From: Bosea sp. 29B
GTDB lineage: Bacteria > Pseudomonadota > Alphaproteobacteria > Rhizobiales > Beijerinckiaceae
Assembly: GCF_902506165.1 (NCBI RefSeq)
Contig: NZ_LR733817.1
Coordinates: 2,684,091 to 2,712,500 of the forward strand
Direction: 5' to 3'
DNA: 28,410 nucleotides
Part shown: in pieces, positions 536 to 15,990 of the stretch
Numbering within the stretch: position 1 is the first letter of the stretch
Layout: every line of letters starts with the position of its first letter
Translations under genes and position numbers: made by a program
The notes under the pieces: generated by a model
The model's input: only the letters and a program-made list of their open reading frames with translations
The model's database searches: none
Told to the model about the DNA's origin: nothing

Positions 536-1948
536 TCACCTCTGCGCGAGGACCGTGCCGGGATTGAGGATGTCGAGCGGGTCGAAGGCCTGTTTGACCG
601 CTCTCATCAGCTCCAGCGCCTCCGGCTGTGCATGCCCTGCCAGCATGCCGACTAGGCTACGCCCGATGCCATGTTCGGCGGTGATGCTGCCGCCGAAATC
701 CCCGACGATCGCGAAGACCTCTGCATTCACGGCATGGCCGATATCCGCAAGCTGCTCCGCCGGCGTCTGTCCGGGAAGGAGCAGGATGACATGGATGTTG
801 CCGTCGCCGACATGGCCGACGAAGAGGGGGCGCGCTTCGGGGAAGCGCTCGGCAGCCATCGCTTCGATTGCCGAGATGAAGGCCGGGACATCGGCGACCG
901 CGACGCTGGTGTCGTGCGAGACGATCGGGCCTGCGCGGCGGTTCGCTTCCGCGACGGCGAAGCGCAGATGCCAGATCGCCCTGGCCTGCGCCTCGCTTTG
1001 CGCGATGGTTGCGTCCTGGAGCATCCCCTGTTCCAGCGCTATGGCGAGAACTTGCGTCAGCATCTCGCCGATGGGGCTGCTCGGATCGCTGTCCCCGAGC
1101 TCGACGAAGACGTACCAGGCATGGCGTCCGTCGAGCGGCAGGGTCGTTCCGGGCACGAGGTCGAGGGTGAGGCCCATCTCGCCGTCGCACATCAGCTCGA
1201 AGCTGGAGATGCGCTCGCCTGCGCTCTGCCTCAGCAGGGCGAGCAGCCGCAATGCATCTACCGGACTCGCCAGGCCGCACAGCGCCGTCACGCTCGCCCG
1301 CGGCCTTGGAAACAGCCTGAAGGTCGCCGCGGTCACGATCGCGAGCGTGCCTTCCGAGCCGATCACCAGCTCCTTGAGCGCATAGCCGGCATTATCTTTC
1401 CGCAGTGGTTTGAGGCCGTGGATCACGGCGCCATCGGCGCGAACGTATTCGAGGCCGAGCACGAGATCACGCACCGTGCCGTAACGGATGACGTTGATGC
1501 CGCCGGCATTGGTCGAAACCACCCCGCCGATCTGGCACGAGCCTTCGCTGCCGAGGCTGAGCGGGAAGAGCCGCTCCTCCCCCGCGGCCGCCTGCTGGAC
1601 ATCGGCGAGGATGCAGCCGGCCTCGGCGGTGAGCGTGTCGCCTTCTAGGTCGATTGCCCTGATCCGATTGAGGCGCGCCAGTGAGAGGACGACGGCTTCG
1701 CCGGAGCCGTCCGGCGTCGCCCCGCCCGACAGGCCGGTGTTACCGCCCTGCGGCACGACCGGCGTGCGTGTCGCACTCGCCCAGCGTAGGATAGCCGAGA
1801 CCTCCTCGACGCTGCGCGGGCGGAGCAGGGCGAGCGCCGCACCGCGATGCTTGCCGCGCCAGTCGCTGAGATGCGGCGCCATCGCCTGCGGATCCGTGAC
1901 GATGGCGGCCGGGTCGAGCGCGGTGCGCAGGTCGTCGAGTGGGCTCAT
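536..1948 (-). CDS. FAD-linked D-2-hydroxyacid dehydrogenase (GlcD / D-lactate / D-2-hydroxyglutarate dehydrogenase family)
   Basis: 470 residues, the normal length for this flavoprotein family, which oxidises D-2-hydroxyacids to 2-oxoacids and passes electrons to a flavoprotein, cytochrome or quinone acceptor. The FAD-binding type-4 (PCMH) fold is at the N-terminus: VVPQGGNTGLSGGA at about 64–77, and GSEGSCQIGGVVSTNAGG at about 133–150. The C-terminal FAD-oxidase domain has HVGDGNIH (379–386), EHGIG (425–429) and LNPGT (461–465), which carry the metal and substrate ligands of the family. No Fe-S domain is attached. It is the last gene of the catabolic operon, starting 4 nt after the SDR stop with no clear Shine-Dalgarno of its own, so coupled translation is likely. 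In this context it could oxidise a hydroxyacid from the sugar-acid pathway, such as lactate or glycolate formed after aldol cleavage. The exact substrate is not predictable. Confidence 0.9.
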   Translation of the reverse strand: MSPLDDLRTALDPAAIVTDPQAMAPHLSDWRGKHRGAALALLRPRSVEEVSAILRWASATRTPVVPQGGNTGLSGGATPDGSGEAVVLSLARLNRIRAIDLEGDTLTAEAGCILADVQQAAAGEERLFPLSLGSEGSCQIGGVVSTNAGGINVIRYGTVRDLVLGLEYVRADGAVIHGLKPLRKDNAGYALKELVIGSEGTLAIVTAATFRLFPRPRASVTALCGLASPVDALRLLALLRQSAGERISSFELMCDGEMGLTLDLVPGTTLPLDGRHAWYVFVELGDSDPSSPIGEMLTQVLAIALEQGMLQDATIAQSEAQARAIWHLRFAVAEANRRAGPIVSHDTSVAVADVPAFISAIEAMAAERFPEARPLFVGHVGDGNIHVILLLPGQTPAEQLADIGHAVNAEVFAIVGDFGGSITAEHGIGRSLVGMLAGHAQPEALELMRAVKQAFDPLDILNPGTVLAQR

Positions 1949-1952: not shown

Positions 1953-2717
1953 CTAGACCGTGCCGGCGTCGACGATGAAGTTCTGGCCGGCGCACATGCG
2001 CGAGACGTCGGAGCAGAGGAACAGCACCATCTGCGCGATGTCCTCCGGCAGGATCTCGCCCTTCAGCGCCTGCGCAGCCTGGTTGGCCGCGCCCTTCTCC
2101 GGCGTCCACCAATGGCTGCGCTGGCGCTCGGTCATCACCCAGCCCGGCGTGACGCAGTTGACCCTGATGCCATCAGGCCCCAGCGCCCGCGCCAGCGAGC
2201 GGGTGAAGCCGATCACCGCCGATTTCGCCGTGGTGTAGGCGATCATATGCGGCGAGCCCTTCATCCACGAGGTCGAGGACAGATTGACCAGCGCCCCGCC
2301 GCCGAGGTCGCGCATATCCGACGTCAGCGCCTGCGCCACGAACATCATCGGCCTGAGGTTCACGGCGAGGCGATCGTCCCAATAGGCCTCCGTCACCGCC
2401 TCGAAATCATGCCGCTCGTCATGGCCGGCATTGTTGACGCCGATGGCGAAAGGGCCGTGAATGGCCCGCGCCGCTGCGATAGCCGCTTGTGTGGCCCGGA
2501 CGTCGCGCAGATCGGTGTGGTGGAACGAGACCCTGCGACCGGCAGCCGTGAGCTCGGCGGTCAAGCGCTCGCCGCGCTCGGCATCGATGTCGAGGAAGGC
2601 GACCTTGGCGCCCTGCCGCACCAGTGCCTCGACGATGGCGCGGCCGATGCCGTCGGCGCCGCCGGTGACGAGGGCCGCCTTGCCGGCGAGATCGGGATAG
2701 CTGGCTTCGATCCTCAC
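1953..2717 (-). CDS. Classical SDR oxidoreductase, probably NAD(P)-dependent sugar 1-dehydrogenase
   Basis: 254 residues, standard for classical short-chain dehydrogenases. The nucleotide-binding TGGADGIGR is at 18–26, NNAG at 95–98, the catalytic Ser near 148 (NLSSTS), Tyr161 and Lys165 (YTTAK). The following stretch GWVMTERQ and a downstream HWW resemble bacterial aldose 1-dehydrogenases that make aldonolactones (D-galactose, L-arabinose or L-fucose dehydrogenase-like SDRs), but this is recognition by eye. The start is a GTG at 2717 that overlaps the upstream stop as GTGA. Its neighbours are a lactonase domain upstream and an FAD dehydrogenase downstream, which supports a role in making the lactone that the neighbouring SMP-30 domain would open. 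A 3-oxoacyl-reductase-type substrate cannot be excluded from motifs alone. Confidence 0.88.
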   Translation of the reverse strand: MRIEASYPDLAGKAALVTGGADGIGRAIVEALVRQGAKVAFLDIDAERGERLTAELTAAGRRVSFHHTDLRDVRATQAAIAAARAIHGPFAIGVNNAGHDERHDFEAVTEAYWDDRLAVNLRPMMFVAQALTSDMRDLGGGALVNLSSTSWMKGSPHMIAYTTAKSAVIGFTRSLARALGPDGIRVNCVTPGWVMTERQRSHWWTPEKGAANQAAQALKGEILPEDIAQMVLFLCSDVSRMCAGQNFIVDAGTV

Positions 2718-4453
2718 CCGCCGAACTCCGCTGCCGGCAATCCGGGCACGTCGACCGGCAAGGTGAAGAGCCCGCCCGAGAACGGCGCCTCGGCCAGCAC
2801 CCGCGAGGGCAAGCGGATGCGCGCCGTGGTAATGAACAGCGTCTTCAGGTCGGGTCCGCCGAAGGCGAGGCTGGTCGGGCGTGGCACCGGCAGCCAGACC
2901 TCACGATCCAGCCTGCCGTCCGGCGCATAGCGGTGCAAGCACCAGCCATCCCAGATCGCGCACCAGACGAAGCCCTCGGCATCGACCGCGAGCCCGTCGG
3001 GGCGGCCGGCGACCTCGGCGAAGACGCGGCGATTGGCGAGCGTCCCGGCCTTGGCCTCGAACTCGTAGGCATAGATGCGGCTATGAGCGGAATCGACGAA
3101 GTAGAACATACGGCCATCGGGACTCCAGTCGAGGCCGTTGGCGACGGTCAGTCCGCTCTCCTGGCGCTGCCAGGAGAGGTCCGGTGCGATCGCGTAGAGC
3201 GCGCCTGAGGCGCGGCTGGCGTCGAGCCGCATCGTGCCGGCCCAGAGCCGGCCCTGCCGGTCGCATTTGCCATCGTTGAAGCGGTTGTCAGGGATGTCGG
3301 CCTCGGGGTCGGCGAGCGGCGTCAGCCGGCCGCTGGCGAAATCGAAGGCCTCCAGCCCTTCCTGCGTCAGCACGACGAGCCCACCGCCGCGGCGGCCGAG
3401 CACGGCGCTGACCAGGCGCGGCAGCGTCACCTCCTCATTGTTCCCGGTCGCCGGATCGAAGCGGTTGACCGAGGGCGCGAGGATGTCGACCCAGTAGAGC
3501 CGCTGCTCGCCGGCCGACCAATAGGGTCCCTCGGCGAGATGCGCGCCCCAGGGCAGCACGCATTGGACGTTGGGATCGACGGGACGCGCCGAGCGCGGCG
3601 CTGGGCTGATGTTCATCTGCGTCGCGCCGACATTGCCGGAGATCTGCCTGGCAGCCGCCATCAGGTCGCGGCCGGTGGTGTGCAGGCGCTCGCGCGTCAG
3701 GCGCGAGGACGGGCCGAACACGCCGATCGCGGCGACGGCCCGGCCGGTATGGTCGAAGATCGGCGCTGCGACCGAGGCGACGCCGGCGACATGCTCCTCC
3801 TGCGAGACGGCATAGCCGCGGGCCCGGGTCAGAGCGAGGTCGGCCGCGAGCGCTTCCTCTTCGGTGATCGTCGTCTCGGTGAAGCGCTCGAACTTCAGCC
3901 GGTCGACGAGGGCGCGCTGCTCATGCGGCTGGACGAAGGCGAGCAGGGCCTTGCCGCCGGCGGTGCAGTGCAGCGGTGCGCGCCGGCCGATCTCGATGCG
4001 GAAGCCATAAGGGCCGCCGCGGCTGCGCTGGTCGATATAGAGCACCTCGCCATTGTCGATGGCGCAAAGGGCGGCGGTCTCGCGCGTCTCCTCGGCGAGC
4101 CGGTCGAGCGCCGGCGCGCCGGCGCCGCGCAGGTCGAAGGATTCCCAGACGCGGTGGGCGAGCTCGAACAGGCGGTGGCCGAGCCGGTAGGTGTTGTCGC
4201 TCTCCTCGTGCCGGATCAGGCGGAAGGTCAGGAGCGTGTTGAGCATGCGCGCCAGCGTGCCCTTGGGCAGGCCGGTCGCGGCCTGCAGGTCGCGGAAGCG
4301 CGGCGGTGCCGGCGCCTCGCCGATCACGTCGAGCAGATAGAGGCCCTTGGCGAGGGCGGCTGCGCCGGTCGGGACATCGCGCTCGTCCGGCGTCAGGACG
4401 CGCGCTTCACCCGCGCCTGCGCCGCCTCGCCGATCATGCGCTCGAAGGTCCAT
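2714..4453 (-). CDS. IclR-family regulator fused to an SMP-30/gluconolactonase domain
   Basis: 579 residues in one uninterrupted frame. Residues ~28–90 form an IclR winged helix-turn-helix (ALAKGLYLLDVI, then LPKGTLARMLNTLL). Residues ~105–275 are the IclR effector-binding domain (PLHCTAGGKALLAF, GYAVSQEEHVAGVASVAAPI). After a short linker, ~300–575 is a complete SMP-30/regucalcin six-bladed propeller. The metal and substrate residues known from regucalcin are all recognisable: Glu308 (HLAEGPYW), Arg391/Asn393/Asp394 (RFNDGK), Asn439 (ANGLDWS) and Asp486 (RPDG). SMP-30 lactonases open aldonolactones; IclR domains bind small metabolites and DNA. One polypeptide could therefore control the operon and act in it. 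The ATG at 4453 overlaps the upstream gene by 61 nt with only a weak Shine-Dalgarno. No later ATG, GTG or TTG would keep the DNA-binding domain whole. The 3' end overlaps the SDR start by 4 nt. Each domain call is secure; the dual role is inference. Confidence 0.9.
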   Translation of the reverse strand: MDLRAHDRRGGAGAGEARVLTPDERDVPTGAAALAKGLYLLDVIGEAPAPPRFRDLQAATGLPKGTLARMLNTLLTFRLIRHEESDNTYRLGHRLFELAHRVWESFDLRGAGAPALDRLAEETRETAALCAIDNGEVLYIDQRSRGGPYGFRIEIGRRAPLHCTAGGKALLAFVQPHEQRALVDRLKFERFTETTITEEEALAADLALTRARGYAVSQEEHVAGVASVAAPIFDHTGRAVAAIGVFGPSSRLTRERLHTTGRDLMAAARQISGNVGATQMNISPAPRSARPVDPNVQCVLPWGAHLAEGPYWSAGEQRLYWVDILAPSVNRFDPATGNNEEVTLPRLVSAVLGRRGGGLVVLTQEGLEAFDFASGRLTPLADPEADIPDNRFNDGKCDRQGRLWAGTMRLDASRASGALYAIAPDLSWQRQESGLTVANGLDWSPDGRMFYFVDSAHSRIYAYEFEAKAGTLANRRVFAEVAGRPDGLAVDAEGFVWCAIWDGWCLHRYAPDGRLDREVWLPVPRPTSLAFGGPDLKTLFITTARIRLPSRVLAEAPFSGGLFTLPVDVPGLPAAEFGG

Positions 4454-5376
4454 TGCGGCTCAAATCCCAGTTCGGTCCGGATCCTGGCGTTCGACGTCTC
4501 GTAGAAGACGCCGGCGCCCGGCAGGTCGATGGTCTTCAACGGCAGTCCCGTCAACTCCGCCATCATCGACAGTGCGGCGGCGAAGTCGACCGGCTCGGTC
4601 GCGCCGAGATTATAGGTGCGCCCGGCGGCGCGCTCGTCGGTGAGCGCGAGCAGGATGCCGGCGACCATGTCGCGCGTGTCAGTGATGTGCATGCGGAAGG
4701 GCCGGCCGGCTTCGCTGCGTGACAGCACCAGCGCCTCGCGCCCATCGTCGATGGCCCGCAGCGCTGCGACAGCCGCCGCATTTCCGAAACCTTCCTGCTG
4801 GCGGATCTTCGGCTGCAGGAAGAAGCGCGGGCCGGAGAAGAAGCTGCCGGGATCGAGCAATTCGCTGGCATCCTGCGTATGCGAGAAGCGCAGGATCGTC
4901 GCAGGGACGCCGCTGGTCCGCTCGAAGAAGCGCACGATCTCTTCGCCGAGAAGCTTACTCAGTCCGTAGGGCGAGCGCGGCTTCAGCGGGTGATCCTCGT
5001 CGATCGGTTGGTAATCCGGCACGTTCTCCGGGTAGACCTCGCCAGAGGAGGCGAAGACGAGGCGCTTTGGCTTCACAGCCGCCGCTTCTTCGAGCAGCAC
5101 GCGCGTGCCCTCGACATTGGCGGAGAACAGCCTGTCGCGATCGGCCGGCAGCCAGGACATGAAGGCGCCGAGATGCAGGATCGCGGCGCTATCGCGCACG
5201 GCCTCCCTTGCGGCGGCGCGATCATCGAAGCCGCCGAGCACTTCGCGATAGGCCGCATGATCGATCCCGCTGGCGCGCAGATCGAATCCCGTGACGCGGT
5301 GGCCCGCTTCGAGCAATTGGCGGGCAACGCGCGAGCCGACACGCCCGGCGCTGCCGGTGACCAGGATCGTGCTCAT
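4393..5376 (-). CDS. Extended SDR: NAD(P)-dependent epimerase/dehydratase or uronate-dehydrogenase-like protein
   Basis: 327 residues, the length of extended SDRs. The N-terminal Rossmann motif is VTGSAGRVGSRVAR (about 5–18), followed by the acidic FDLRA that favours NAD. The active site is SSGEVYP, with Tyr and Lys in YGLSK about 25–30 residues later. The later VRD-type segment is present as ITDTRDMVAGI. The fold can serve a nucleotide-sugar epimerase, a uronate or aldose dehydrogenase, or an aldehyde or ketone reductase. Placement inside a sugar-acid operon favours oxidation or epimerisation of a free sugar or lactone. The start ATG overlaps the stop of the ABC ATPase gene (ATGA), and its end overlaps the start of the IclR–SMP-30 gene by 61 nt, so translation is coupled on both sides. 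Confidence 0.85.
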   Translation of the reverse strand: MSTILVTGSAGRVGSRVARQLLEAGHRVTGFDLRASGIDHAAYREVLGGFDDRAAAREAVRDSAAILHLGAFMSWLPADRDRLFSANVEGTRVLLEEAAAVKPKRLVFASSGEVYPENVPDYQPIDEDHPLKPRSPYGLSKLLGEEIVRFFERTSGVPATILRFSHTQDASELLDPGSFFSGPRFFLQPKIRQQEGFGNAAAVAALRAIDDGREALVLSRSEAGRPFRMHITDTRDMVAGILLALTDERAAGRTYNLGATEPVDFAAALSMMAELTGLPLKTIDLPGAGVFYETSNARIRTELGFEPQWTFERMIGEAAQARVKRAS

Positions 5377-6494
5377 CGGATCGCCTCGCCGCTGGCGGCA
5401 TCGAAGACATGCAGTCGCGCCGGGTCGAACGAAAGCGTCAATGTCGCCTCCGGCGGCCTTGGATCGGGATTGATCAGGCGTGCGATCAGCGAAGTCCGCC
5501 GTGCCTCGTCCTCGCCGCCGGAACTCGCCTCGCGACGGTGCTCGTCGGGCAGATCGACATAGACATATTGCTCGCTGCCGAGGCTCTCGATCAGCCGCGG
5601 GCTGACCGCGAAGGAGACCTGCCCTGGTCCCGCGGCGATGTGCTCAGGCCTGAGCCCGACGACGATCTCCTTGCCGGCGAGCGCAGCGGCGTTCGGGACC
5701 GGCAGCGTCACGGCGTGACCGAACAGGTTCGCTGTCACGCCGCCGCCTTTGGCTTCGGCCTTTGCCTTGAGGAAGTTCATGCCGGGCGAGCCGATGAAGC
5801 CGGCGACGAAGAGATTGGCCGGCTCGCGGAACATCACATCGGGCGAGGCGATCTGCTGGATGACGCCGTCCTTCATGATGACGATACGGTCGGCCATCGT
5901 CATCGCCTCGGTCTGGTCGTGGGTGACGTAGATCGTCGTCACCCGCAGCCTCTTGTGCAGGGCGCTGATCTCGGCCCGTGTGTGGACACGCAGCTTGGCG
6001 TCGAGGTTGGAGAGCGGCTCGTCCATCAGGAAGGCCTGCGGCTCGCGCACGATCGCCCGGCCGAGCGCGACGCGCTGGCGCTGGCCGCCGGAGAGGGCGC
6101 GCGGCCGGCGTTCGAGGAGATGGTCGATGCCGAGGATTTTTGCGGCCTCGGCGACCCGCCGCTCGATCTCGGCCGCGTCGGTGCCGCGCATCTTCAGGCC
6201 GAAGCCCATGTTCTTGGCGACCGTGAGATGCGGGTAGAGCGCGTAGTTCTGGAAGACCATGGCGATGTCGCGATCGCCGGGGGCGAGGTCGGTGACATCT
6301 CGCTCGCCGATGCTGATCGTGCCGGAGGAGGCTTCCTCCAGCCCGGCGAGGATCTTCAGCATCGTCGACTTGCCGCAGCCTGACGGGCCGACGAGGACGA
6401 CGAACTCGCCATCGGCGATGTCGAGCGAGAACGCCTTGAGGACGGTGAGCCCGCCATAGGATTTGGTGACGCTGTCGATGCGGATTCCGGCCAT
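5373..6494 (-). CDS. Sugar ABC importer ATPase (MalK/UgpC family)
   Basis: 373 residues from the ATG at 6494; the open frame extends further upstream but that part overlaps the permease gene and is not homologous. Walker A is GPSGCGKST (36–44), the Q-loop Gln is near 82, the signature LSGGQ is at 134–138, Walker B is FLMDEP (Asp158, Glu159), and the switch His is His192 (VTHDQTEAM). The C-terminal third is the TOBE/MalK regulatory region (VVGLRPEHI). This cytoplasmic subunit would energise the two permeases encoded directly upstream, 8 nt away. MalK-type ATPases sometimes serve several importers. The substrate is judged from operon context to be a sugar or sugar acid. Confidence 0.95.
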   Translation of the reverse strand: MAGIRIDSVTKSYGGLTVLKAFSLDIADGEFVVLVGPSGCGKSTMLKILAGLEEASSGTISIGERDVTDLAPGDRDIAMVFQNYALYPHLTVAKNMGFGLKMRGTDAAEIERRVAEAAKILGIDHLLERRPRALSGGQRQRVALGRAIVREPQAFLMDEPLSNLDAKLRVHTRAEISALHKRLRVTTIYVTHDQTEAMTMADRIVIMKDGVIQQIASPDVMFREPANLFVAGFIGSPGMNFLKAKAEAKGGGVTANLFGHAVTLPVPNAAALAGKEIVVGLRPEHIAAGPGQVSFAVSPRLIESLGSEQYVYVDLPDEHRREASSGGEDEARRTSLIARLINPDPRPPEATLTLSFDPARLHVFDAASGEAIR

Positions 6495-6502
6495 GAGACT
6501 CT

Positions 6503-7333
6503 CTACTTCTCGGCCCCGGCCGTCAGGCCGCCGACGAGATAACGTTCGAGGAAGAGGTAGATCGCGAGGATGGGCAGGGCGACGAGGATGGATGCGGCGG
6601 AGATGTCGCTCCAGTTCGAGATGTACTCGCCCTTCATCGTGGTAATGCCGAGATTGGCGGTCCAGTTGCCCTGGGCGTTGGTCAGGAAGGTGCGGGCATA
6701 GGCATAGTCCGACCAGGACAGGACGAAGCCGTAGAGCGCGGTTGCCGCCAGTCCCGGCGCCGAGACCGGCAGGATCACCCGGACCATGGCGCCGAGCGGC
6801 GAGCAGCCATCGACCATCGCCGCCTGTTCGAGCTCGCGCGGGATCGTGTCGAAATAGCCCTTCAGCATCCAGGTGGTGAACGGGATGATCAGCGTGGCGT
6901 GGGCGAGGATGATCGACCACAGGCTGCCGATCAGTTCGAGATTGCGGAAGATGCCGAAGAGCGGGATCACCAGCAGCGTCGCCGGCAGCATCTTGGCGGT
7001 CAGGATGAAGAGCCCGAGCGACTGGCCGCCACGCACGCGAAAGCGTGACAGGCTGTAGCCGGCGAGCACCGAGACGACCATGGACAGGCTGACCGCCCCG
7101 ATCGCCGCCAGCGCCGAGTTGCCGAGCCAGAGCAGGATCGGCTTCTCCGCCATGATCTGGCCGAACACGCCCCAGCGCGGCTCGCTCGGCCAGAAGCTCG
7201 GCGGCAATTGCCTGAGCAGGCTCGGCTCGGAGAGCGCGGTGACGACGAGCCAGTAGATCGGGAAGACCAGGATGGCGCAGGTCAGGGCAACGCCGGCATA
7301 GAGCAGGACGCGCTGCGGGGTTTTCCGTCTCAT
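6503..7333 (-). CDS. Carbohydrate ABC transporter permease (MalG type)
   Basis: 276 residues with about six hydrophobic segments: near 9–33, 70–95, 105–128, 138–155, 190–212 and the C-terminal 240–265. The cytoplasmic EAA loop, which docks on the ATPase, is at about 167–188 (ELEQAAMVDGCSPLGAMVRV). This is the inner-membrane subunit usually encoded second in CUT1-type sugar importers. The start is supported by AGGAGG positioned 5 nt before the ATG and overlapping the stop of the upstream permease. It lies 10 nt after that gene and 8 nt before the ATPase gene, so all three are one transport unit. Confidence 0.93.
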   Translation of the reverse strand: MRRKTPQRVLLYAGVALTCAILVFPIYWLVVTALSEPSLLRQLPPSFWPSEPRWGVFGQIMAEKPILLWLGNSALAAIGAVSLSMVVSVLAGYSLSRFRVRGGQSLGLFILTAKMLPATLLVIPLFGIFRNLELIGSLWSIILAHATLIIPFTTWMLKGYFDTIPRELEQAAMVDGCSPLGAMVRVILPVSAPGLAATALYGFVLSWSDYAYARTFLTNAQGNWTANLGITTMKGEYISNWSDISAASILVALPILAIYLFLERYLVGGLTAGAEK

Positions 7334-7343
7334 CGCCGCCTCC

Positions 7344-8249
7344 TCAGATATTGTCCGGCGCGCGGGCGATCATCAGCCGGCTCGCGATCACGCAGACGAT
7401 CAGGGTGATGACGCCGATGGCCGAGGCGTAGCCCATCTTGAAGAAGCCGAAGGCCTGCTCGTAGGTCATGATCGAGAGCGATTGCGTCGCCTTCAGCGGC
7501 CCGCCGCCGGTCAGCACGTAGATGATCGAGAAGTCGCGGAAGACCCAGAGCATCACCAGCACCAGCGTGACGCCGATCACCGGCATCAACGAGGGGATGG
7601 TGATGTGGAGGAGCCGCTGCCAGGCGCGGGCGCCGTCGACCTTGGCGGCGTTGTAGAAGTCCTCGGGGATCGACTGCAAACCGGCCAGCATCATGATCGA
7701 GACGAAGGGATAGCCCTTCCAGACCATCACCGTGCAGACCACGGCGAAGGCGGCATCGGGCGAGGAGAACCAGTTGATCGTCTGGTCGACGAGGCCGAGC
7801 TTGATGAAGAGCCAGTTCATCAGGCCGAAGGAGGAATCGAACAGCCAGGCGAAGATCACGACCGCGATCACTTCCGGGATCGCCCAGGGCAGGGCGACCA
7901 GCAGCCGCGCCAGCGCCTGGCCCTTGAAGCGGTTGTTGACCAGCAGCGCCGTGCCGAGGCCGAGCAGGAAGCAGAAGAAGGAGACGATGGTGACGAGCTT
8001 GAACGTCACCCAGCAGGCGTTCCAGAAATCCTCGGAGGCGAAGAGCCGCTCGTAATTGGCGGTCGTGAACGGCCGGCGCGGCTGGTCCAGCCGGGCGATG
8101 TTGACGTTCTGGAAGGAGAGATCGACCGAGACGAACAGCGGATAGACGATGATCAGCGCGATCAGCAGCACCGCCGGCGCCAGCAGGAGATAGCCGAGCC
8201 AGTGCCGCCGGCTCGGGCGGGCGAGGTCGAGGAAGGCTGATCGGGGCAT
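7344..8249 (-). CDS. Sugar ABC transporter permease (MalF/UgpA type)
   Basis: 301 residues from the ATG at 8249, which follows AGGAGG with 4 nt spacing; a longer open frame to 8312 reads through an intergenic repeat and was discarded. The first membrane segment is YLLLAPAVLLIALIIVYPLF, typical of MalF/UgpA-type permeases, followed by about five more. The EAA loop is IPEDFYNAAKVDGARAWQRL. It pairs with the MalG-type permease downstream. The 123-nt gap between this gene and the binding-protein gene holds a palindromic repeat and a hairpin, which probably reduces expression of the membrane subunits relative to the binding protein. Confidence 0.93.
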   Translation of the reverse strand: MPRSAFLDLARPSRRHWLGYLLLAPAVLLIALIIVYPLFVSVDLSFQNVNIARLDQPRRPFTTANYERLFASEDFWNACWVTFKLVTIVSFFCFLLGLGTALLVNNRFKGQALARLLVALPWAIPEVIAVVIFAWLFDSSFGLMNWLFIKLGLVDQTINWFSSPDAAFAVVCTVMVWKGYPFVSIMMLAGLQSIPEDFYNAAKVDGARAWQRLLHITIPSLMPVIGVTLVLVMLWVFRDFSIIYVLTGGGPLKATQSLSIMTYEQAFGFFKMGYASAIGVITLIVCVIASRLMIARAPDNI

Positions 8250-8270
8250 GGTGCCTCCTGGCCGAAGCTC

Positions 8271-8315
8271 GTCATTCTCGGGCGGAGCGAAGCGCAGACC
8301 CGAGAATCTCATGAC
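8271..8315. repeat. Intergenic palindromic repeat, copy A
   Basis: ATTCTCGGG (8274–8282) pairs perfectly with CCCGAGAAT (8299–8307); the outer GTCAT/ATGAC (8271–8275 and 8311–8315) can also pair after a short bulge. The loop contains CGGAGCGAAG (8283–8292), which also occurs in the two repeats near 24 and 25.7 kb. This looks like a dispersed intergenic element of the kind common in Hyphomicrobiales. Confidence 0.6.
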
Positions 8316-8372: not shown

Positions 8373-9644
8373 TCACTGCTTCTGCAGTGCCTCGGCCTTG
8401 GCCTGCATCGTCGCCGCGACGGTCTTCGGGTCGAGGTCCTGGATGATCATGCGCTGCGACTCTTCCATGACCATCTTGGCGAACTCGTTGAACTGCAGCT
8501 CAAGTCCCTTCGGGATGCGGTCGACCTTGGCCTCGGCCGCCGCCTTGGTCGCCTGCACCAAGAGGTCGAAATGCGGCGTGTCCTTGGTCGCGGCCGAGGT
8601 GTCGGCGCGTGGGCTGGGCGGCGGCGAGGCGCCGAGCGTCGCATAGCTCGACTGGAACTTGTCCGAGGTCGCGATCGCGATGAAGTCCCAGACCAGCTTC
8701 TTGTTCTCCTTCGGCGCATCGGCGGCGATGCCGAGCACGTTGGAGGAGCCGCCGACCGGCGGCTTGAACGGCACCATGCCGAGCTTGATCTGGTCCTTGG
8801 CCTTGCCCTTCTGGATGATCGGGTAGAGCCAGGGCCCGTCCGTCTTCATCGCGATCTTGCCGTCGGCGAACATCTGGCGGACCTCGCCGGCCGCCAGATC
8901 GCGCGGGGTCAGGCTGTTCTTGACGATGGTCTTCCAGCGCGACAGGCCCTCGATCATCTCGGGCGTGTTGATCGTCACCTTGCCGGCATCATTGGTCCAG
9001 CGCCCGCCGGCATCGAGCGTGTAGTTCATCATCTCGCTCATGTACTGGCCGCCGCCGCCCTTGGTCTCGTGGCCGGTGCCGAACTGGTCGGTGATGCCGT
9101 CGCCGTTGAGGTCCTTGGTCAGTTTCTGCGCGGCGGCGAGGAACTCGGCATAGGTCTTGGGGACGGAAAGACCTTCCTTCTTCAGCAACTCTTCATTGTA
9201 AGCGAAGATGTAGCCGAAATAGAGCATCATCGTGCAGACGGTCTGCTTGTTCCAGCTGCAGGTGTCCTGCCCGGCCCAGCCCTTGAGGTCGAGTTTCGAC
9301 TCCTTGATGTAAGCGTCGAGCGGCTCCAGCCAGCCATTATCGGCGAATTTCTGGAACTCGAAGGAGGCGAGGTGGACGATATCCGGCGGCTTGCCGCCGG
9401 CGAACAGGGTCGTCATCGTGTCGGCATAGGCACCGCGCTCGACCTTGGTCCATTCGATCTTGACGCCGGGATGGGTCGCCTCGAACTCCTTGATCACCGA
9501 GCCCCACCAGTCACCGACGCCGCGCTCGTCCTTCTGCCAGGAGACGAATTTCAGCACCTTGCCCTGCGCCAGCGCGGCGCCGGGGAGAAAGCCGGCGGCG
9601 AGCGCGAGCGCAGCCGCGGAGAATGCAAGCCTTGTCCTCGTCAT
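8373..9644 (-). CDS. Sugar ABC transporter substrate-binding protein (family 1 extracellular)
   Basis: 423 residues, usual for CUT1 solute-binding proteins. The signal peptide is MTRTRLAFSAAALALAAGF with cleavage at about ALA-QG (residue 26). The mature chain begins KVLKFVSWQKDERG, continues with FEATHPGVKIEW and has the conserved AGGKPPDIVHL and later FADGKIAMKTDGPW segments of the MalE/UgpB group. It would capture the sugar in the periplasm and deliver it to the two permeases. A strong GGAGGAG lies just before the ATG. It sits 27 nt after the dehydratase gene, so the enzymes and importer share one transcript. The protein family does not reveal the ligand. Confidence 0.95.
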   Translation of the reverse strand: MTRTRLAFSAAALALAAGFLPGAALAQGKVLKFVSWQKDERGVGDWWGSVIKEFEATHPGVKIEWTKVERGAYADTMTTLFAGGKPPDIVHLASFEFQKFADNGWLEPLDAYIKESKLDLKGWAGQDTCSWNKQTVCTMMLYFGYIFAYNEELLKKEGLSVPKTYAEFLAAAQKLTKDLNGDGITDQFGTGHETKGGGGQYMSEMMNYTLDAGGRWTNDAGKVTINTPEMIEGLSRWKTIVKNSLTPRDLAAGEVRQMFADGKIAMKTDGPWLYPIIQKGKAKDQIKLGMVPFKPPVGGSSNVLGIAADAPKENKKLVWDFIAIATSDKFQSSYATLGASPPPSPRADTSAATKDTPHFDLLVQATKAAAEAKVDRIPKGLELQFNEFAKMVMEESQRMIIQDLDPKTVAATMQAKAEALQKQ

Positions 9645-9671: not shown

Positions 9672-10841
9672 CTAAAGCCGTTTCAGCAGCTTGAGCGCTT
9701 CCTTCGACGGCTCGACGCCGAGGCCGGGCCCGCTCGGCAAACGGTAGAAGCCTTCGCTGCAATCCATGTCGCCCTGGAGCAGCCGCCGGTTAGGCTCGAA
9801 GATCGAATGCTGGAACTCGTGGCACTCGACCGCCGCAAGCGCCGAGGACGCATGCAGGCTCGCCGCCAGGAACAGGCCGATGCCGATGGTGGCGTGCGGG
9901 ATGACCCGGAGGTGATGCGCCTGGGCATAGAGGCCGATGCGCATGAACTCGGTCACGCCCTTATGGCCCATTTCCGGCTGCACGATCGCGCAGGCACGCC
10001 GGGCGGCGCGCGGCACGAGATCATAGACGGTGCGCCATTCCTCGCCGGCCGCGACCGGCGTCGAGACCTTCGCAGCGACATGGGCGAGGCCGTCGAGATC
10101 CTCCGGTTTCACCGGCGCCTCGGCGAACCAAAGACCGTGCGGCTCCATCGCTCGGATCGCCGCGACGGCTTCTTCGCCGGTATGGACCCAGTGCAGGTCG
10201 CAGGCGATGCGCGCCTGCGGCCCGAGCCGCTCGCGCAGCGTCCTGATTTCCGCGACATTGCCGTCATCGGCGACGGGGGCGGCGAACTTGAAGCTGTCGA
10301 AGCCCTTTGCCTGCCATTCCGCCGCGAACTCGGCCCGTTCCACCAGCGTCGGCTTCGGCAGGCCGGAGATGTAAGCCGGCAAACGCTCATACTTTTGCCC
10401 GCCGAGCAGCTTGACCAAAGGCAGGCCGGAGAGCTTGCCGCACAGGTCCCACAGCGCGATGTCGATCGCGGCGAGCGCGTCGAGATAGAAGCCGCCGGTA
10501 TAGCCGCGCACCCGCATCAGATCGTAGAGATCGTCATGGATGACGCTGACGTCGCGCGGATCGCGCCCGACGACGAAAGGGCCGAGCAGGTCGTCAATGA
10601 TCGCCATCGCCGCGCCGGGCGCGACGATGCCATAGGTCTCGCCCCAGCCGACCGCGCCGCTTGCCGTCTCGATCCGGACGACCACGGTACGGTCGACCGT
10701 CGGATAAACCGTGCGGTTGCCCTTGCGGACGATATAGCCGTGATCGTTGATGCGCTCGCCCTCGCGCAGGGCGCCGAGATAGGGCGTCTCGCGCGGGATG
10801 GTGATCGAGAACACCTCGACGCGGGCGACACGCTCGGCCAT
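9672..10841 (-). CDS. Mandelate racemase / muconate lactonizing enzyme family protein, probable sugar-acid dehydratase
   Basis: 389 residues from the ATG at 10841, which forms TGATG with the upstream stop and has GGAGG 6 nt away; a GTG one codon earlier is less well placed. Numbering here includes that GTG. The N-terminal capping domain is followed by the enolase-superfamily barrel. Metal ligands appear as Asp216 (CDLHW), Glu242 (FAEAP) and Glu268 (AAGEEW), and the general-base His as His317 (IPHA). At the usual KxK motif the sequence reads KFA (Lys186), so the second Lys is missing, and the Asp paired with the His appears as Glu291 (QPEMGHKG). These differences from mandelate racemase point to an aldonate or aldarate dehydratase subgroup. 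In the pathway it would turn an aldonate into a 2-keto-3-deoxy acid. The specific substrate is unknown. Confidence 0.9.
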   Translation of the reverse strand: MAERVARVEVFSITIPRETPYLGALREGERINDHGYIVRKGNRTVYPTVDRTVVVRIETASGAVGWGETYGIVAPGAAMAIIDDLLGPFVVGRDPRDVSVIHDDLYDLMRVRGYTGGFYLDALAAIDIALWDLCGKLSGLPLVKLLGGQKYERLPAYISGLPKPTLVERAEFAAEWQAKGFDSFKFAAPVADDGNVAEIRTLRERLGPQARIACDLHWVHTGEEAVAAIRAMEPHGLWFAEAPVKPEDLDGLAHVAAKVSTPVAAGEEWRTVYDLVPRAARRACAIVQPEMGHKGVTEFMRIGLYAQAHHLRVIPHATIGIGLFLAASLHASSALAAVECHEFQHSIFEPNRRLLQGDMDCSEGFYRLPSGPGLGVEPSKEALKLLKRL

Positions 10842-11767
10842 CACGCGCCTCCGCCGAGCTTGGGCTCGCGCGGCTCGACCGTCATGAGGTCGGCGCAGGC
10901 GTCGAGCCAGGCGTCGATCTCGGCGACATCAAGCGCATCCATCGGCGGCACCTTGGCCCGCACGACCTGGTTGGTCAGCACGCCGCGCCGCGTCAGCACA
11001 TGCTTGGTGAAGGCCATGCGGAAATTGAACTGAATCACCAGCAGCGGCAGCGTGCGCATATAGAGTTCGCGCGCGCGCTCGATGTCGCCACTGCGATAGG
11101 CCCGGTCCATCGCGACATGGACATCGGCGAGCTCGACCGCCGGCATCGCGCCGCAGGCACCGCGATTGTATTCGTCGATCAGGTAGCGCGCCCCGCCGCC
11201 GCCGATCACGCCCTTCAGATGCGCCGGCATGCCGGCCGCGATCGCCGAGATGGCGAGGCCGGACGGCAGCGTCTCCTCCTTGACATAGGTGATCGCCGGA
11301 TTGTCGCGGACGATTTGGAGGATCGCCTCGGGCTTGAGGTCGGAGCCGCGCGGCGCCGGCGCGTTCTGCAGCACGATCTCGATGCCGGGCACTGCCGCAG
11401 CAATCTCGCCATAGAAGGCCGAGACGGCCTCTGTCGTGGTGCCGACGCTCTTCGGCGCCTGGATCATCGCATGGCGGATGCCGTTGGCGAGGGCCTCGCG
11501 GCAATGCGAGATGGCCTCGAGGGCGGTCGGAGCGCTCGCGCCGGCGACGATCGGCAAGCGTCCGCCGACCCCGGTGACCACCACCTTCAGCAGTGTCGTC
11601 CGTTCGGCCGCAGTGAGCTCGTCGACCTCGCTGGCGAAGCCCGGGAACACGACGCCGTCGACGCCGCTGGCGACGGCGAAGTCGACGATCCCCGCCATCG
11701 CCTCGGGATCGACGGCTCCAGCCTCGGTGAACGGCGTCGGCAACACCGGGAGCATGCCCTGCAGCAC
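10841..11767 (-). CDS. DHDPS/N-acetylneuraminate lyase family aldolase or dehydratase
   Basis: 308 residues, normal for this TIM-barrel class I aldolase family. The Schiff-base lysine is Lys163 (TYVKEE). The catalytic tyrosine motif of DapA (YNxP) reads QNAP here (Gln134), so the usual Tyr relay is absent. That argues against a true DapA and for a 2-keto-3-deoxy sugar-acid aldolase or dehydratase. The C-terminal stretch GGGGARYLIDEYNRGACG is typical of the family. It would act after the enolase-superfamily dehydratase. The start is a GTG at 11767 with AGGAGG 6 nt upstream; an ATG four codons later has a poorer site. This is the first gene of the operon, directly behind the candidate operator. 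Confidence 0.9.
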   Translation of the reverse strand: MLQGMLPVLPTPFTEAGAVDPEAMAGIVDFAVASGVDGVVFPGFASEVDELTAAERTTLLKVVVTGVGGRLPIVAGASAPTALEAISHCREALANGIRHAMIQAPKSVGTTTEAVSAFYGEIAAAVPGIEIVLQNAPAPRGSDLKPEAILQIVRDNPAITYVKEETLPSGLAISAIAAGMPAHLKGVIGGGGARYLIDEYNRGACGAMPAVELADVHVAMDRAYRSGDIERARELYMRTLPLLVIQFNFRMAFTKHVLTRRGVLTNQVVRAKVPPMDALDVAEIDAWLDACADLMTVEPREPKLGGGA

Positions 11768-11781: not shown

Positions 11782-11800
11782 TGATCCATATTGTGGATCA
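11782..11800 (-). promoter_or_regulatory. Candidate operator of the catabolic operon
   Basis: TGATCCA-TATTG-TGGATCA is a perfect 7-bp dyad with a 5-bp spacer, 15 nt upstream of the first start codon in the only AT-rich spot of the area. A further half-site, AATATGGA (11811–11818), is the inverse of TCCATATT inside the dyad (11785–11792). It fits a repressor site covering the promoter or transcription start. The in-operon IclR–SMP-30 protein is the obvious candidate binder, but this is inferred. Confidence 0.6.
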
Positions 11801-11855
11801 TTTGTTTTCTAATATGGACCGTACTTCTCAGGGCAGGAATGGTCAAGCGCGCATG

Positions 11856-11914: not shown

Positions 11915-12394
11915 TCAGTGCTTGTGCGCTTCGGCCGGGGCACGGGCGCCGACCGACTGCACGGAGAACTCGACCGGGACCGCTCCGGCCTTCTCGAAGG
12001 TCAGGGTGCCCTTGATCGTCTCGCCTTCCTTGAGCTGGCGCTTCAGATCCATGAACATGATGTGGTAGCCGCCGGGCTTCAGCTCGAGCTTGGCGCCGGG
12101 CTTGAGCTCGACGCCCTCGGGCAGGCCGCGCATGGTCATCACGCCGTTGTTCATCGACATCTCGTGGATCTCGACCTTGCCGGCGATCTCGCTGCTGCCG
12201 CCGAGCAGGCGGTCGGGGGCACTGCCGGTGTTGGTGACCGCGACATAGCCGCCAGCGACCTTGGCGCCACCGGGGGTGGCGCGCGTCCAGGGCTGCTCGA
12301 TCTTGAGCGGGCCGGCCGTGTAGTCCTGCGCGAGGGCGGTGCCGCAGTTCAGCGCGAGGGCTGTGGCGGCGAGGGCGAAGCGGAACTTGGTCAT
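11915..12394 (-). CDS. Periplasmic copper chaperone PCu(A)C
   Basis: 159 residues starting at the ATG at 12394, which has AAGGAG 8 nt upstream and opens directly with a signal peptide (MTKFRFALAATALALNCGTA, cleaved near ALA-QD). The mature protein has the cupredoxin-like PCu(A)C fold with its copper motif: His77 and Met79 (HEMSM), Met88, then His111 and Met113 (GGYHIMFM), plus a short AHKH tail. PCu(A)C proteins bind Cu(I) in the periplasm and hand copper to the CuA site of cytochrome oxidase, often together with SCO1; a SenC/SCO1 gene lies at 23366. It is the last gene of the copper cluster, 19 nt behind the DJ-1-like gene. Confidence 0.93.
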   Translation of the reverse strand: MTKFRFALAATALALNCGTALAQDYTAGPLKIEQPWTRATPGGAKVAGGYVAVTNTGSAPDRLLGGSSEIAGKVEIHEMSMNNGVMTMRGLPEGVELKPGAKLELKPGGYHIMFMDLKRQLKEGETIKGTLTFEKAGAVPVEFSVQSVGARAPAEAHKH

Positions 12395-12413
12395 CTTGAG
12401 GCTCCTTGGGTGA

Positions 12414-13211
12414 TCAAAGCGAGAGTCGGGACTTGGCGAGGTCGGCATTGCGCCGGGCGGCATCGATCAGGGGCTTGCGCCGCGCCAGCACATCGCCGGT
12501 GAGCTTGGCACCGGCGCGCTCGGGCGAGCCGGCGTCGAAAGGCGGTTGCGGATCATATTCCAGCACGAGCTGGATCAGGCGCGCCGTCTCCTCATCACGC
12601 AATTTGGCGGCGACCGTCAGGCCGAAATCGATTCCGGCCGTGACGCCACCGCCGGTGATGCGGTTGCGGTCGGTGACGACGCGGCTGTGCTCGACGCTCG
12701 CTCCCATCGCTGCCAGAAGGTCGCGAATGTACCAGTGGCCAGTGGCGCGATAGCCCTTCAGCAGTCCGGCGGCGCCGAGCAGCAGCGAGCCTGTGCAGAC
12801 CGCGGTGACATAGCGGGCCCGGGCGCCGCGATCGGCGAGGAAAGCGAGTGTCTGCGCATCCTCCATCAGCGCGACGCTCCCCTTCAGCCCGCCGGGGATG
12901 AACAGGACATCGAGATCGGCCGGGCAGTCGGCATAGCTCGTCGTCGGCGTGACCGGCAGGCTAAGATCATTCGCGACCGGCTGCCGGTCCTTCCAGACCA
13001 GGTGCAGCTCCGCCCGCAGCAGTGAGAACACGGTCAGCGGACCGACCAGGTCGAGCATGACCATATCGGGGTGCACCAGCATCGCGATCCGCGGTGTGCT
13101 CGCGCCGGCAGGCTGGGCCAGCGCGGCTTGCGGCAGCCCGGCGAGCAATCCGGAGAGCGCGCCGGCCGCTGCCAGGCCCGTCCAGTCGCGTCGTGTCATG
13201 TCACCTGTCAT
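12414..13211 (-). CDS. Tat-exported DJ-1/PfpI family protein resembling isonitrile hydratase
   Basis: 265 residues. The N-terminus MTRRDWTGLAAAGALSGLLA is a twin-arginine signal with cleavage near ALA-QP, so the enzyme should act in the periplasm. The rest is a DJ-1/PfpI glutamine-amidotransferase-like fold with a nucleophile elbow AVCTGSLLLG (Cys139, Thr140) and MLDLVGP (Asp54). Asp, Cys and Thr in these places match the catalytic set reported for Pseudomonas isonitrile hydratase (Asp17, Cys101, Thr102), and GYRATGHW and DRNRITGGGVTAGIDFGL also fit that subgroup. The start at 13211 overlaps the CopC–CopD stop (ATGA) and has GGAG 8 nt upstream; a second ATG at 13199 begins MTRRDW. Other DJ-1-type chemistry (for example a glyoxalase) remains possible. 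Its position between copper genes is unexpected. Confidence 0.85.
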   Translation of the reverse strand: MTGDMTRRDWTGLAAAGALSGLLAGLPQAALAQPAGASTPRIAMLVHPDMVMLDLVGPLTVFSLLRAELHLVWKDRQPVANDLSLPVTPTTSYADCPADLDVLFIPGGLKGSVALMEDAQTLAFLADRGARARYVTAVCTGSLLLGAAGLLKGYRATGHWYIRDLLAAMGASVEHSRVVTDRNRITGGGVTAGIDFGLTVAAKLRDEETARLIQLVLEYDPQPPFDAGSPERAGAKLTGDVLARRKPLIDAARRNADLAKSRLSL

Positions 13212-14797
13212 GGCCTGATCTCCACGGTCTCCTTGAGACGGGTCATCTCGAAATCCGAGACCAGGATCTCGAGCTCGATGGTCCAGCGTCCGGCGACGGG
13301 AAGCGTCAGATCGCCGACTCGCCAGCTGCCGTCTGCTTGCTTGGTGGCCTGCCGCTCGATCGGCTCGATGCCGGCTTCCGGCCGTGACAAGGCAAGCCGC
13401 AATTCCTTCGCCGCAAGCGGGCCGAACTCGCCGTCGAGCAGCGAGACGGTGATCGTCACCGGGCCAGCGCGGCCAGGTGTCAGGCTGATGTCGGCCATCG
13501 CCTTTTCGGTATGGATATGGACGCTGGCTGGCTGGGCAGCCGCAGCGAAGAGGGCGCGCGGCGGCGGCGTAAAACGCCAGAGCGCGACGACGGCGAGGAT
13601 GGCGACGATGATCGCGATCTCAGCCGCGATGATCCGGGTCAGCCGCGAGCGGGTGTTCGCCCGCCCGGATACGGCCGCGTCCGTCAGCCGGTAGCGGTTG
13701 AAAGCGCCGAGGCCGATCAGCGCCGCGACCAGCGCGAGCTTGCCGGTGAGTACGAGGCCGTAGGGAGTGGTCAGCAACGCCTGCGGGCGCTCGACTTGGA
13801 CGATGGCCAGAGCGAGGCCGCTGAGCAGGATGAAGAGCAGCAGCACCGGAATGCGTCGCGAGAAACGCTGCAGCGTCTGCGCCCCGTCGGGCTGTCGCAA
13901 GGCGAGAGCGAGAGGCAGCAGCGCGCCGGCCCAGCCGGCCATGCCGATCGCGTGCAGGAACACGGCCGGGCGGGTCAGGAATTGCGGTTCAGCGGCGCTG
14001 GCGTGGCCGCTGGCGGCAAGCGCCGCGCCGGTGCCGAGCCAGGCAATGATTGCGAGCAAGCGTCCACTCCGACCGGGCACGCCGAGCGCGATCAGTGCGA
14101 CGAGCAAACCGAGCGTCGCGATCAACGCGGTGCGGCCGAAACTGCTCGCGGCGGCCGCCTGCCAGGCCGCTGGCTGAAGCGCACCGGAAAGCGGCAGTGT
14201 CAGAGCGTCGAGCCCCTGTGCCGCGAAGGCGATCGGCAGCGACAGCAGCCCGAGCGCGAGGAAGCCCGCTATCGGCCGGCGCACGGGTGCGGGCAGGGGG
14301 GCGGCCCAGGCCATGAAGGCCACGCCGCCGATGCCGAAAGCGAGCCCGAGATAGAGCCCGAACTTGCCGAGCCAGAGCGCGATGCGGACGGCCGGCTCGG
14401 TCTGGCTTGCGGTGATGGCAGGCGCTGCGCTCGGTGCACCCACCGAGAACAGCACCGAGCCACCGACGGGATGGCCGTCCTCGGAAACGACACGCCAACT
14501 CAGCACATGCGTGCCAGTGGCGAGATCGGACGGTGCCGTGATCGCGAGCGTCCGATCCGTGAGCGTGAAGCGCGTCAGCGCGCGGCTCGTCCCGTCCGGG
14601 CCGATCAGCTTCAGCACCAGCGGCGAGACCGGCTCGCTGAAGCTCAGGCTGAACTCGGCGGGCGCGCTGGCGACGACCGAGCCGTCGGCCGGAACAGTCT
14701 TCGTCAAGGCGGCATGCGCCATCGCCTGTCCCGCCGTCGCGAGCGAGGCGACGGCGAGGCCGAGCAGGATGAGAAGGAGGTGAAGTTGCCGGGTCAT
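13208..14797 (-). CDS. CopC–CopD fusion, copper resistance/uptake membrane protein
   Basis: 529 residues with three parts. After a signal peptide (cleavage AMA-HAAL at 27/28), residues 28–120 are a CopC domain: mature N-terminal His28 plus Asp107 and His109 (SEDGHP) form the expected Cu(II) site. Residues ~145–410 contain about eight membrane segments of the CopD type. The last ~100 residues return to the periplasm as a beta-rich YtkA/FixH-like domain (PVTITVSLLDGEFGPL, then GRWTIELEILV). CopC–CopD fusions are believed to carry copper across the inner membrane or buffer it in the periplasm. The gene lies 40 nt after YcnI and overlaps the DJ-1-like gene by 4 nt. Confidence 0.92.
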   Translation of the reverse strand: MTRQLHLLLILLGLAVASLATAGQAMAHAALTKTVPADGSVVASAPAEFSLSFSEPVSPLVLKLIGPDGTSRALTRFTLTDRTLAITAPSDLATGTHVLSWRVVSEDGHPVGGSVLFSVGAPSAAPAITASQTEPAVRIALWLGKFGLYLGLAFGIGGVAFMAWAAPLPAPVRRPIAGFLALGLLSLPIAFAAQGLDALTLPLSGALQPAAWQAAAASSFGRTALIATLGLLVALIALGVPGRSGRLLAIIAWLGTGAALAASGHASAAEPQFLTRPAVFLHAIGMAGWAGALLPLALALRQPDGAQTLQRFSRRIPVLLLFILLSGLALAIVQVERPQALLTTPYGLVLTGKLALVAALIGLGAFNRYRLTDAAVSGRANTRSRLTRIIAAEIAIIVAILAVVALWRFTPPPRALFAAAAQPASVHIHTEKAMADISLTPGRAGPVTITVSLLDGEFGPLAAKELRLALSRPEAGIEPIERQATKQADGSWRVGDLTLPVAGRWTIELEILVSDFEMTRLKETVEIRP

Positions 14798-14837
14798 GGC
14801 GGGAAGGCGGCCGGGCGGAAAACCCGGCCGCGCTCGC

Positions 14838-15356
14838 TCACTTCTTCGGCGTCAGCTTCACGCCGGGCGCCGGGAACTTGTAATCGTCAGCCGACTTGCC
14901 GGCCGCCGGGATCTCGATCCAGCGCTCGACCGCACCGCCCTCGCATTCCTGTACCACTGGTACGTAGAGCGTCGTCTCCGGCTTGAGGTCGGCGGCGAGA
15001 TAAGCGCGCAGGACGAACTCGTCATAATGCTCGTCGAGCAGCTTGCCGCCGCTCCAGCTGACCTCGGTGACGCCCTCAGCCGTCGGTGTGCCGTAATAAT
15101 CGTAGGACTTCTCGTACTTGCCCTTGGTCGTCTCCAGCGTCCAGCCGGGCTTGGGCATCGGCTTGACCGCGATGACGCCCTCGGGAATGCGGACGCGGAC
15201 CTTGGTCGTGGCCGCGCCCTTGCAACCATGCGGCACGCGCAGCACCGCCTTGTAGGTCGAGCCGACCGGGGCCTGCTGGGTTTCCAGCGTGACATGGGCG
15301 AAGGCCGGGCCGGCAGTGAAAGCCGCGACGAGGGCGGCGAGCGAAAGCGATTTCAT
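14838..15356 (-). CDS. YcnI-family (DUF1775) periplasmic copper-binding protein
   Basis: 172 residues from the ATG at 15356, chosen because it begins exactly at a signal peptide (MKSLSLAALVAAFTAGPAFA). The predicted mature protein starts with His21 (HVTLE), the copper-binding N-terminal histidine known for the YcnI/DUF1775 family. Conserved parts include VPHGCKGAATTKVRVRIPEG and the Trp-bearing PGWTLE. A longer frame to 15416 would bury the signal peptide. YcnI genes usually neighbour copC/copD, as here. The likely role is a copper chaperone working with the CopC domain in the periplasm. The 180-nt gap upstream (15357–15536) contains nothing I recognise. Confidence 0.92.
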   Translation of the reverse strand: MKSLSLAALVAAFTAGPAFAHVTLETQQAPVGSTYKAVLRVPHGCKGAATTKVRVRIPEGVIAVKPMPKPGWTLETTKGKYEKSYDYYGTPTAEGVTEVSWSGGKLLDEHYDEFVLRAYLAADLKPETTLYVPVVQECEGGAVERWIEIPAAGKSADDYKFPAPGVKLTPKK

Positions 15357-15536
15357 CGTCAGGAATCCCTGCGGAAAGGACGCCGGCACGGCCGGCGCAG
15401 CCGCGTTCGGCGGCATGAATTTGGAAGGAGCGCGCGAGTCGGCAGGGTGCCGTCGCGAGCGAATGGGGCGAGGAAAGGCCGTTGGCGACCGTCAGCAAGG
15501 GGAGGCGGCGCGACCTTGCGCGCAGGCCTGTCCTGT

Positions 15537-15929: not shown

Positions 15930-15990
15930 AACCAACCCTCCTGCGATTTCGATAGCATGGCTGCCGGCAGGGTCAATTTGCGTTGATGTC

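Follow-up and report, generated by a model that had tools for sequence, protein, structure and literature searches.

Can one polypeptide chain both repress a sugar-oxidation operon and perform one of that operon's enzymatic steps? The question is raised by a gene in a 28,410-nucleotide stretch of the Bosea sp. 29B genome (the window, whose numbering is used throughout), for which the initial annotation had claimed one uninterrupted frame joining a complete IclR regulator to a complete SMP-30 lactonase. Our analysis bore this out: a single ORF of 579 residues contains both domains in full. It lies on the minus strand, a detail absent from that annotation; the plus-strand reading of 2714-4453 contains a stop. 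The gene and the parts of its product are:

2714..4453, minus strand: fusion gene, IclR regulator plus SMP-30 lactonase, 579 aa (ORF, Pfam, phmmer, AlphaFold2)
4208..4357, minus strand: IclR helix-turn-helix domain, HTH_IclR, residues 33-82, with recognition-helix residue A68 (Pfam)
3638..4150, minus strand: IclR_C effector/oligomerisation domain, residues 102-272 (Pfam)
3560..3625, minus strand: linker of about 22 residues, residues 277-298 (alignment; low pLDDT at 274-281)
2819..3538, minus strand: SGL (SMP-30/gluconolactonase) propeller, residues 306-545, with E308, N393, N439 and D486 (Pfam, phmmer)

HTH_IclR and IclR_C both exceed their Pfam cut-offs, and the N-terminal half matches IclR-family structures by phmmer while reaching the cut-off of none of the listed NCBIfam IclR equivalogs. 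The SGL domain is complete (profile positions 1-246 of 246, E 3.7e-86), and the C-terminal half matches the Caulobacter crescentus xylonolactonase 7plb (E 6.8e-53) and regucalcin (E 1.7e-45) by phmmer. Judged by these sequence comparisons, each half is a member of its own family. An AlphaFold2 model of the fusion (24 sequences) had a mean pLDDT of 84.2 and a pTM of 0.62, with strands along residues 297-566 and a poorly defined linker at 274-281. The length of the linker is steady at 17-25 residues across 58 aligned fusions.

The database check for this architecture that the initial annotation had proposed was run on ~5.8 billion proteins, and the architecture is common to the best 120 of 649 scoring homologues (56-98% identity): precomputed domains gave IclR_C plus SGL in 120/120, with a few short proteins lacking the HTH. 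The nearest named relatives among the matches listed are from Bosea and Boseaceae. We also scanned one genome per species, using as probes two peptide patterns taken from its lactonase portion, which gave at least 80 loci; because one pattern contains N393, this residue is partly conserved by construction in that set, and the scan disfavours the dead-lactonase forms described below. The fusion is present in a single frame in at least 56 loci besides the window's own genome, as 57 ORFs because one locus (L050) carries two divergent copies. By order, these loci belong to Hyphomicrobiales (38), Rhodobacterales (9), Rhodospirillales (2), Acetobacterales (2) and Burkholderiales (2), with 3 unplaced. 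In L050, from Paraburkholderia, the two divergent fusion genes (L050:7927-11665) share an intervening region with GTTCCA-type dyads. Whole-genome samples, each including the window's own genome, gave low counts, which indicates a patchy distribution: 16 of 397 genomes order-wide, all full length; 6 of 385 class-wide, where G543 matches over the SGL half only and another has an in-frame TGA; and 6 of 398 phylum-wide, three of these over the SGL half only. Among plasmid records, 126 matched at E<=1e-60, of which 123 covered 80% or more of the query; Sinorhizobium contributed 57 and Agrobacterium 46 of the 126. As the same single frame recurs at no fewer than 56 other loci, in four alphaproteobacterial orders plus Burkholderiales, and in 16/397 genomes of the order as well as in the other samples, neither a local frameshift nor an assembly error can account for it, and the probability that the fusion is an artefact of sequencing or assembly is negligible.

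A further claim of the initial annotation was that all regucalcin-type metal residues are kept, and this held in nearly all of the close family. Residues E308, N393, N439 and D486 of the fusion align by phmmer with the E, N, N and D of regucalcin, which we take to be its metal and substrate residues. Across the window protein and the best 120 of 649 homologues, E308 is present in 121/121 and N393, N439 and D486 in 120/121 each. All four residues occur in 53 of the 58 aligned fusions, the window protein (ENND) included, and in the pSymA copy of Sinorhizobium meliloti 1021 (L117); the exceptions among the 58 are L030 (D486G), L045 (D486N), L056, L061 and L077. In L030 the D486G fused copy and an intact standalone SMP-30 gene share a cluster (9899-11695 / 7092-8075 region); as this is a single metagenome-assembled genome, the pair possibly reflects a division of labour or possibly an assembly error. 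The window's own genome has further SMP-30 genes, two at 40-43% identity and others that match more weakly, so other proteins there may also act as lactonases.

The fusion gene lies in a minus-strand operon in which a DHDPS-family gene is followed by genes for a dehydratase, a solute-binding protein, two permeases, an ATPase, an epimerase-family protein, the fusion, an SDR enzyme and an FAD oxidase:

10841..11767, minus strand: DHDPS-family enzyme (aldolase or dehydratase), operon gene 1 (Pfam, NCBIfam, PDB comparison)
9672..10844, minus strand: enolase-superfamily sugar-acid dehydratase (Pfam, NCBIfam, PDB comparison)
8373..9644, minus strand: sugar ABC transporter solute-binding protein (Pfam, PDB comparison)
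7344..8312, minus strand: ABC permease (Pfam)
6503..7333, minus strand: ABC permease (Pfam)
5373..6920, minus strand: ABC ATPase ORF (Pfam, NCBIfam)
4393..5376, minus strand: NAD-dependent epimerase/dehydratase family protein (Pfam, PDB comparison)
1953..2717, minus strand: SDR, nearest NCBIfam model D-xylose 1-dehydrogenase, below cut-off (NCBIfam)
536..1948, minus strand: FAD-linked oxidase, GlcD-like, below cut-off (Pfam, NCBIfam)

The SDR and fusion genes overlap by 4 nt. About 142 extra N-terminal residues of the ATPase frame overlap the permease gene; because the profile is matched only from residue 143 onward, translation probably starts near 6494. The ATPase match of S. meliloti 1021 pSymA shifts frame at about 10342 of L117, which looks like a frameshift or a sequence error. 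A terminator-like hairpin separates the operon from upstream copper genes, which adjoin it at 11915-18819 and encode PCuAC, CopC/CopD and a heavy-metal P-type ATPase.

This gene content fits a route from sugar to lactone, aldonate and keto-deoxy acid with the fusion as lactonase, and the sugar-oxidation operon named in the initial annotation is accordingly supported: the genes fit dehydrogenase, lactonase, dehydratase and aldolase steps plus uptake, with an IclR-type operator at the promoter. The proposed check of operon contexts showed the fusion near dehydratase or DHDPS-type relatives in 52 of the 56 other loci listed. Many of these loci are cut by contig ends, and with that limit relatives of the individual genes were found for the dehydratase in 51, DHDPS in 47, the ATPase in 51, each permease in 47, the binding protein in 31, the epimerase-family protein in 26 and the FAD oxidase in 7; the SDR has relatives in 35 (26 at >=40% identity) and so is absent in 21, some of them contig-end cuts. 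The fusion is the sole SMP-30 match of the examined flanking DNA in 54 of these 56 loci, the extra match being standalone in L030 and fused in L050, and the window operon likewise has no other SMP-30 gene. With respect to the sugar, PDB and NCBIfam comparisons of the operon enzymes fix no identity: the dehydratase is close to 4h1z and 2ppg and the epimerase-family protein to 4id9, all with molecule names that give no substrate. Guessing the names of the S. meliloti genes by their map position led to no paper relevant to sugar identity. A 2-keto-3-deoxygalactonokinase gene is a neighbour at the three loci examined for it (L012, L018 and L037), a hint of a hexonate substrate.

Upstream of operon gene 1, the dyad that the initial annotation had placed at 11782-11800 is present in the sequence, and inspection identified a second, outer site and a promoter-like pair beside it:

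11783..11799, minus strand: inner operator dyad GATCCACAATATGGATC (inspection, consensus scoring, genome pattern search)
11804..11820, minus strand: outer operator GGTCCATATTAGAAAAC, its centre 21 nt upstream of the inner centre (inspection, consensus scoring)
11818..11846, minus strand: promoter-like pair TTGACC-N17-TACGGT, next to the operators (by eye; under scan threshold)

The promoter scan reported no promoter-like site at the TTGACC-N17-TACGGT pair, and on the plus strand the 11782-11800 dyad was also called a terminator-like hairpin. Suvorova and Gelfand (PMC8222616) describe the types of IclR operator consensus and report tandem sites spaced by 18-22 nt; for scoring we used this independently published consensus. 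In silico, the window operators match the types published there and their tandem spacing of 21 nt falls within the published range. In a test of consensus scores against dinucleotide shuffles, p<=0.05 was reached by 20 of the 31 promoters with DHDPS first (11 misses) and by 15 of the 25 regions that precede other fusions (10 misses); L035 and L063, cut at contig ends, were dropped. The misses include L036 (a clear case) and L026, L030 and L033, where the fusion gene is not operon-first. For 30 loci, promoters outscored the stretch preceding the fusion gene in mid-operon (Mann-Whitney p 1.7e-9). A score of at least 16 was reached by 53% of the promoters vs 2% of 600 random 120-mers, and the score of a second site peaked at offset -21 (7.61 vs a mean of 4.49, sd 0.91), with this second site weak in several loci (e.g., L023, L028, L048 and L057). 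In many loci with fusion-first operons the other published type, TGGAACTNAGTTCCA, lies upstream of the fusion. Since sites precede DHDPS-first as well as fusion-first operons, their position follows the operon start and not one particular gene. Upstream of the operon, the tandem arrangement recurs in different genera.

Two further observations connect these sites with the protein. Residue 68 of the recognition helix is His in 17/17 rows with a GTT-type half-site and Ala in 18/18 others, a comparison of hand-entered sites in rows related by ancestry that covers the 35 of 58 rows with a site judged clear and leaves out 23. Elsewhere in the 6.3-Mb genome the core GRTCCAN5TGGAYC of the dyad recurs once, within a long reading frame, and the reversed control pattern likewise has one match in the genome; the near-uniqueness of the core suggests a local regulator. 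Given the tandem operator and a residue 68 that varies with the half-site, the DNA-binding half probably works. The operator also offers a handle for asking which sugar induces the enzymes close to 4id9, 4h1z and 2ppg.

Both halves of the fusion are under purifying selection, as dN/dS over three pairs was 0.01-0.14 for the IclR half and 0.06-0.16 for the SGL half. The exceptional L077, used as a query, led to a second IclR+SGL fusion family with a very different propeller. Among its best 120 of 608 scored proteins (the query's own included; P0122-P0241, with loci L118, L119, L138-L143 and L147-L151), 119 have SGL, and E308 and D486 are both absent throughout; 5 proteins retain a single one of the four residues and the other 115 retain none. 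The 308 and 486 columns are anchored by neighbouring prolines in 119/120 and 115/120 of the proteins among the matches listed. The size of the protein is kept (median length 548, propeller median 265, best 120 of 608), the family profile still matches 7plb and regucalcin, and a model (mean pLDDT 85.0) places the propeller on Caulobacter xylonolactonase with a TM of 0.77 (target length) and an rmsd of 2.7. This retention of a propeller in a dead-lactonase branch lends indirect support to a non-catalytic role for the domain. A further subfamily, in seven loci of the window's own genus, has Lys at 308 and none of the four residues; loci of the Lys-308 kind in Bosea-like genomes are L144, L152-L157 and L174. 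We considered whether a basic residue replaces the metal, as K or R stands at one of the four sites in 84 of the 120 dead proteins among the matches listed, but do not claim this, since 12% of random column quadruples do the same. All seven plasmid regions examined are of the dead kind, with an enolase-superfamily gene within 8-9 kb, an annotated RraA-like gene in 5/7 and an aldehyde dehydrogenase in 4/7. No operator was found for the dead branch, the best consensus scores upstream of 7 genes being 12-14 vs a random mean of 12.9. At equal IclR identity (60-70%), SGL identity is 61% in the catalytic family (1391 pairs) vs 41% in the dead one (1011 pairs), so a propeller without catalysis changes faster yet is kept, which fits either a new sensor role or slow decay.

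In an IclR tree of 73 rows, a branch found in 98% of 200 bootstrap trees places 40 fused rows on one side and 33 standalone rows on the other (bootstrap/SH-aLRT 99/83), 30 of the 33 having been collected with the catalytic IclR half as query. Support for the 22 dead rows is 100/99 and for the 18 catalytic-type rows 97/73. As this tree unites active and dead forms in one clade, an origin of the two by separate fusions is not favoured. In a quick SGL tree the sampled dead rows form one group, the catalytic label needs four changes and standalone lactonases are nested among the catalytic fusions; owing to this nesting and to the seeding of the standalone rows, swaps or fissions of the SGL half may have occurred. 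Most simply, the trees would reflect one fusion, after which one branch lost catalysis and a few other members lost it independently. A search with the IclR half gave 86 proteins (lengths 154-490 as listed), among which we saw no close IclR half that is complete and lacks a propeller: of its matches above 55% identity, P0242 and P0250 end in out-of-frame tails and several others list a partial SGL, and full-length standalone IclR proteins have at most 39% identity to the IclR half.

We consider it likely (probability roughly 0.77) that an old gene fusion gave rise to a bifunctional protein, in which an IclR-type repressor of the sugar-oxidation operon that encodes it is joined to that operon's aldonolactonase. 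Dimers would bind the two sites 21 nt apart on the same face of the DNA and block RNA polymerase, and the propeller would hydrolyse the lactone made by the SDR enzyme. The repressor would be released by a pathway compound, most likely an aldonate or 2-keto-3-deoxy acid in IclR_C; this domain is where effectors usually bind and it is complete here, so an intermediate further along the pathway may be the ligand. Release by lactone bound in the propeller is a less secure suggestion. Coupling between the two halves is possible but on the unlikely side. In the built-in off-switch put forward by the initial annotation, the protein would be a true trigger enzyme: the propeller would also be a sensor, lactone or acid bound there would alter the IclR half, and by hydrolysing its own signal the chain would restore repression. 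The dead branch (E308 or D486 in none of the best 120 of 608), which keeps the fold in one clade with the active forms, is consistent with this, as are the steady linker length and the D486G fused copy beside an intact free lactonase in the metagenome-assembled L030. That IclR_C could sense alone, that the faster change of dead propellers also fits slow decay, and that the linker is poorly defined in the AlphaFold2 model leave us doubtful of such an arrangement. The same flexible linker, and the ordinary appearance of each half within its family, suit a fusion that serves co-expression only, two independent functions in one chain with no signal between them; we give this somewhat less than even chances, as it sits poorly with a dead branch that keeps the domain without catalytic use and with the lack of a complete close propeller-less IclR half among the 86 proteins.

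Two other readings concern what the gene makes and what its lactonase half does. An internal start at Met280 would yield a free lactonase besides the full-length regulator, and a Met is aligned at 280 in 28/58 fusions and in 65/121 (window protein plus best 120 of 649). By eye there is no clear Shine-Dalgarno sequence before it, and the remaining rows have other residues at 280, though a valine could hide a GTG, so that we think two products improbable. It is more improbable still that the propeller of the window protein is already a sensor only: other fusion members have lost catalysis, but the four residues are kept here and in 53/58, and the operon has no other SMP-30 gene. Returning to the bifunctional repressor-lactonase, its clade might then hold a natural enzyme-to-sensor series, in which the propeller of the old fusion serves as hydrolase and as reporter of the lactone or acid (a self-clearing signal) and that of the other branch, having lost catalysis, became a purely sensory second input to a two-input regulator. 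We offer this as a tentative scheme, possible rather than probable.

Trigger enzymes such as PutA combine an enzyme and gene control in one protein, and the fusion likewise pairs an enzyme domain with a regulator, between which a coupling of catalysis to DNA binding is hypothetical. It shares HTH_IclR and IclR_C, the operator consensus and the tandem spacing with the sugar-acid regulators KdgR, BhcR and PcaR/PcaU, and differs from them in having a whole lactonase after the effector domain. With Caulobacter xylonolactonase (7plb) and regucalcin (3g4e) it shares the full SGL domain and the four aligned residues, and it differs in that its SGL sits behind a transcription factor. The initial annotation knew of no characterised IclR+SMP-30 fusion, and we too encountered none in open-access papers, most subscription papers lying outside the search; some databases give these proteins names that mention both halves, so the architecture has been seen before and is undescribed within the papers searched. 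The dead-lactonase branch of the same fusion, of which open-access papers gave no description either, is to that same extent new here. The closest parallel is the BzdR study (PMC3602430), which built active and inactive synthetic Q1/Q2 chimeras that mimic a path from enzyme to regulator. There, too, an enzyme fold sits on a DNA-binding regulator in catalytically active and inactive versions; the active intermediate was lab-built, whereas here both forms are natural and a separate effector domain is present. The loss of catalytic residues that marks BzdR-like enzyme-derived regulators is absent from the window protein (ENND) and present in its sister branch. How an enzyme becomes a transcriptional sensor has been approached with built chimeras (PMC3602430), and the fusion with its dead branch looks like their natural counterpart; as active and dead forms both occur in the window's own genus, and the active kind has candidate operators, a direct comparison of the steps is possible.
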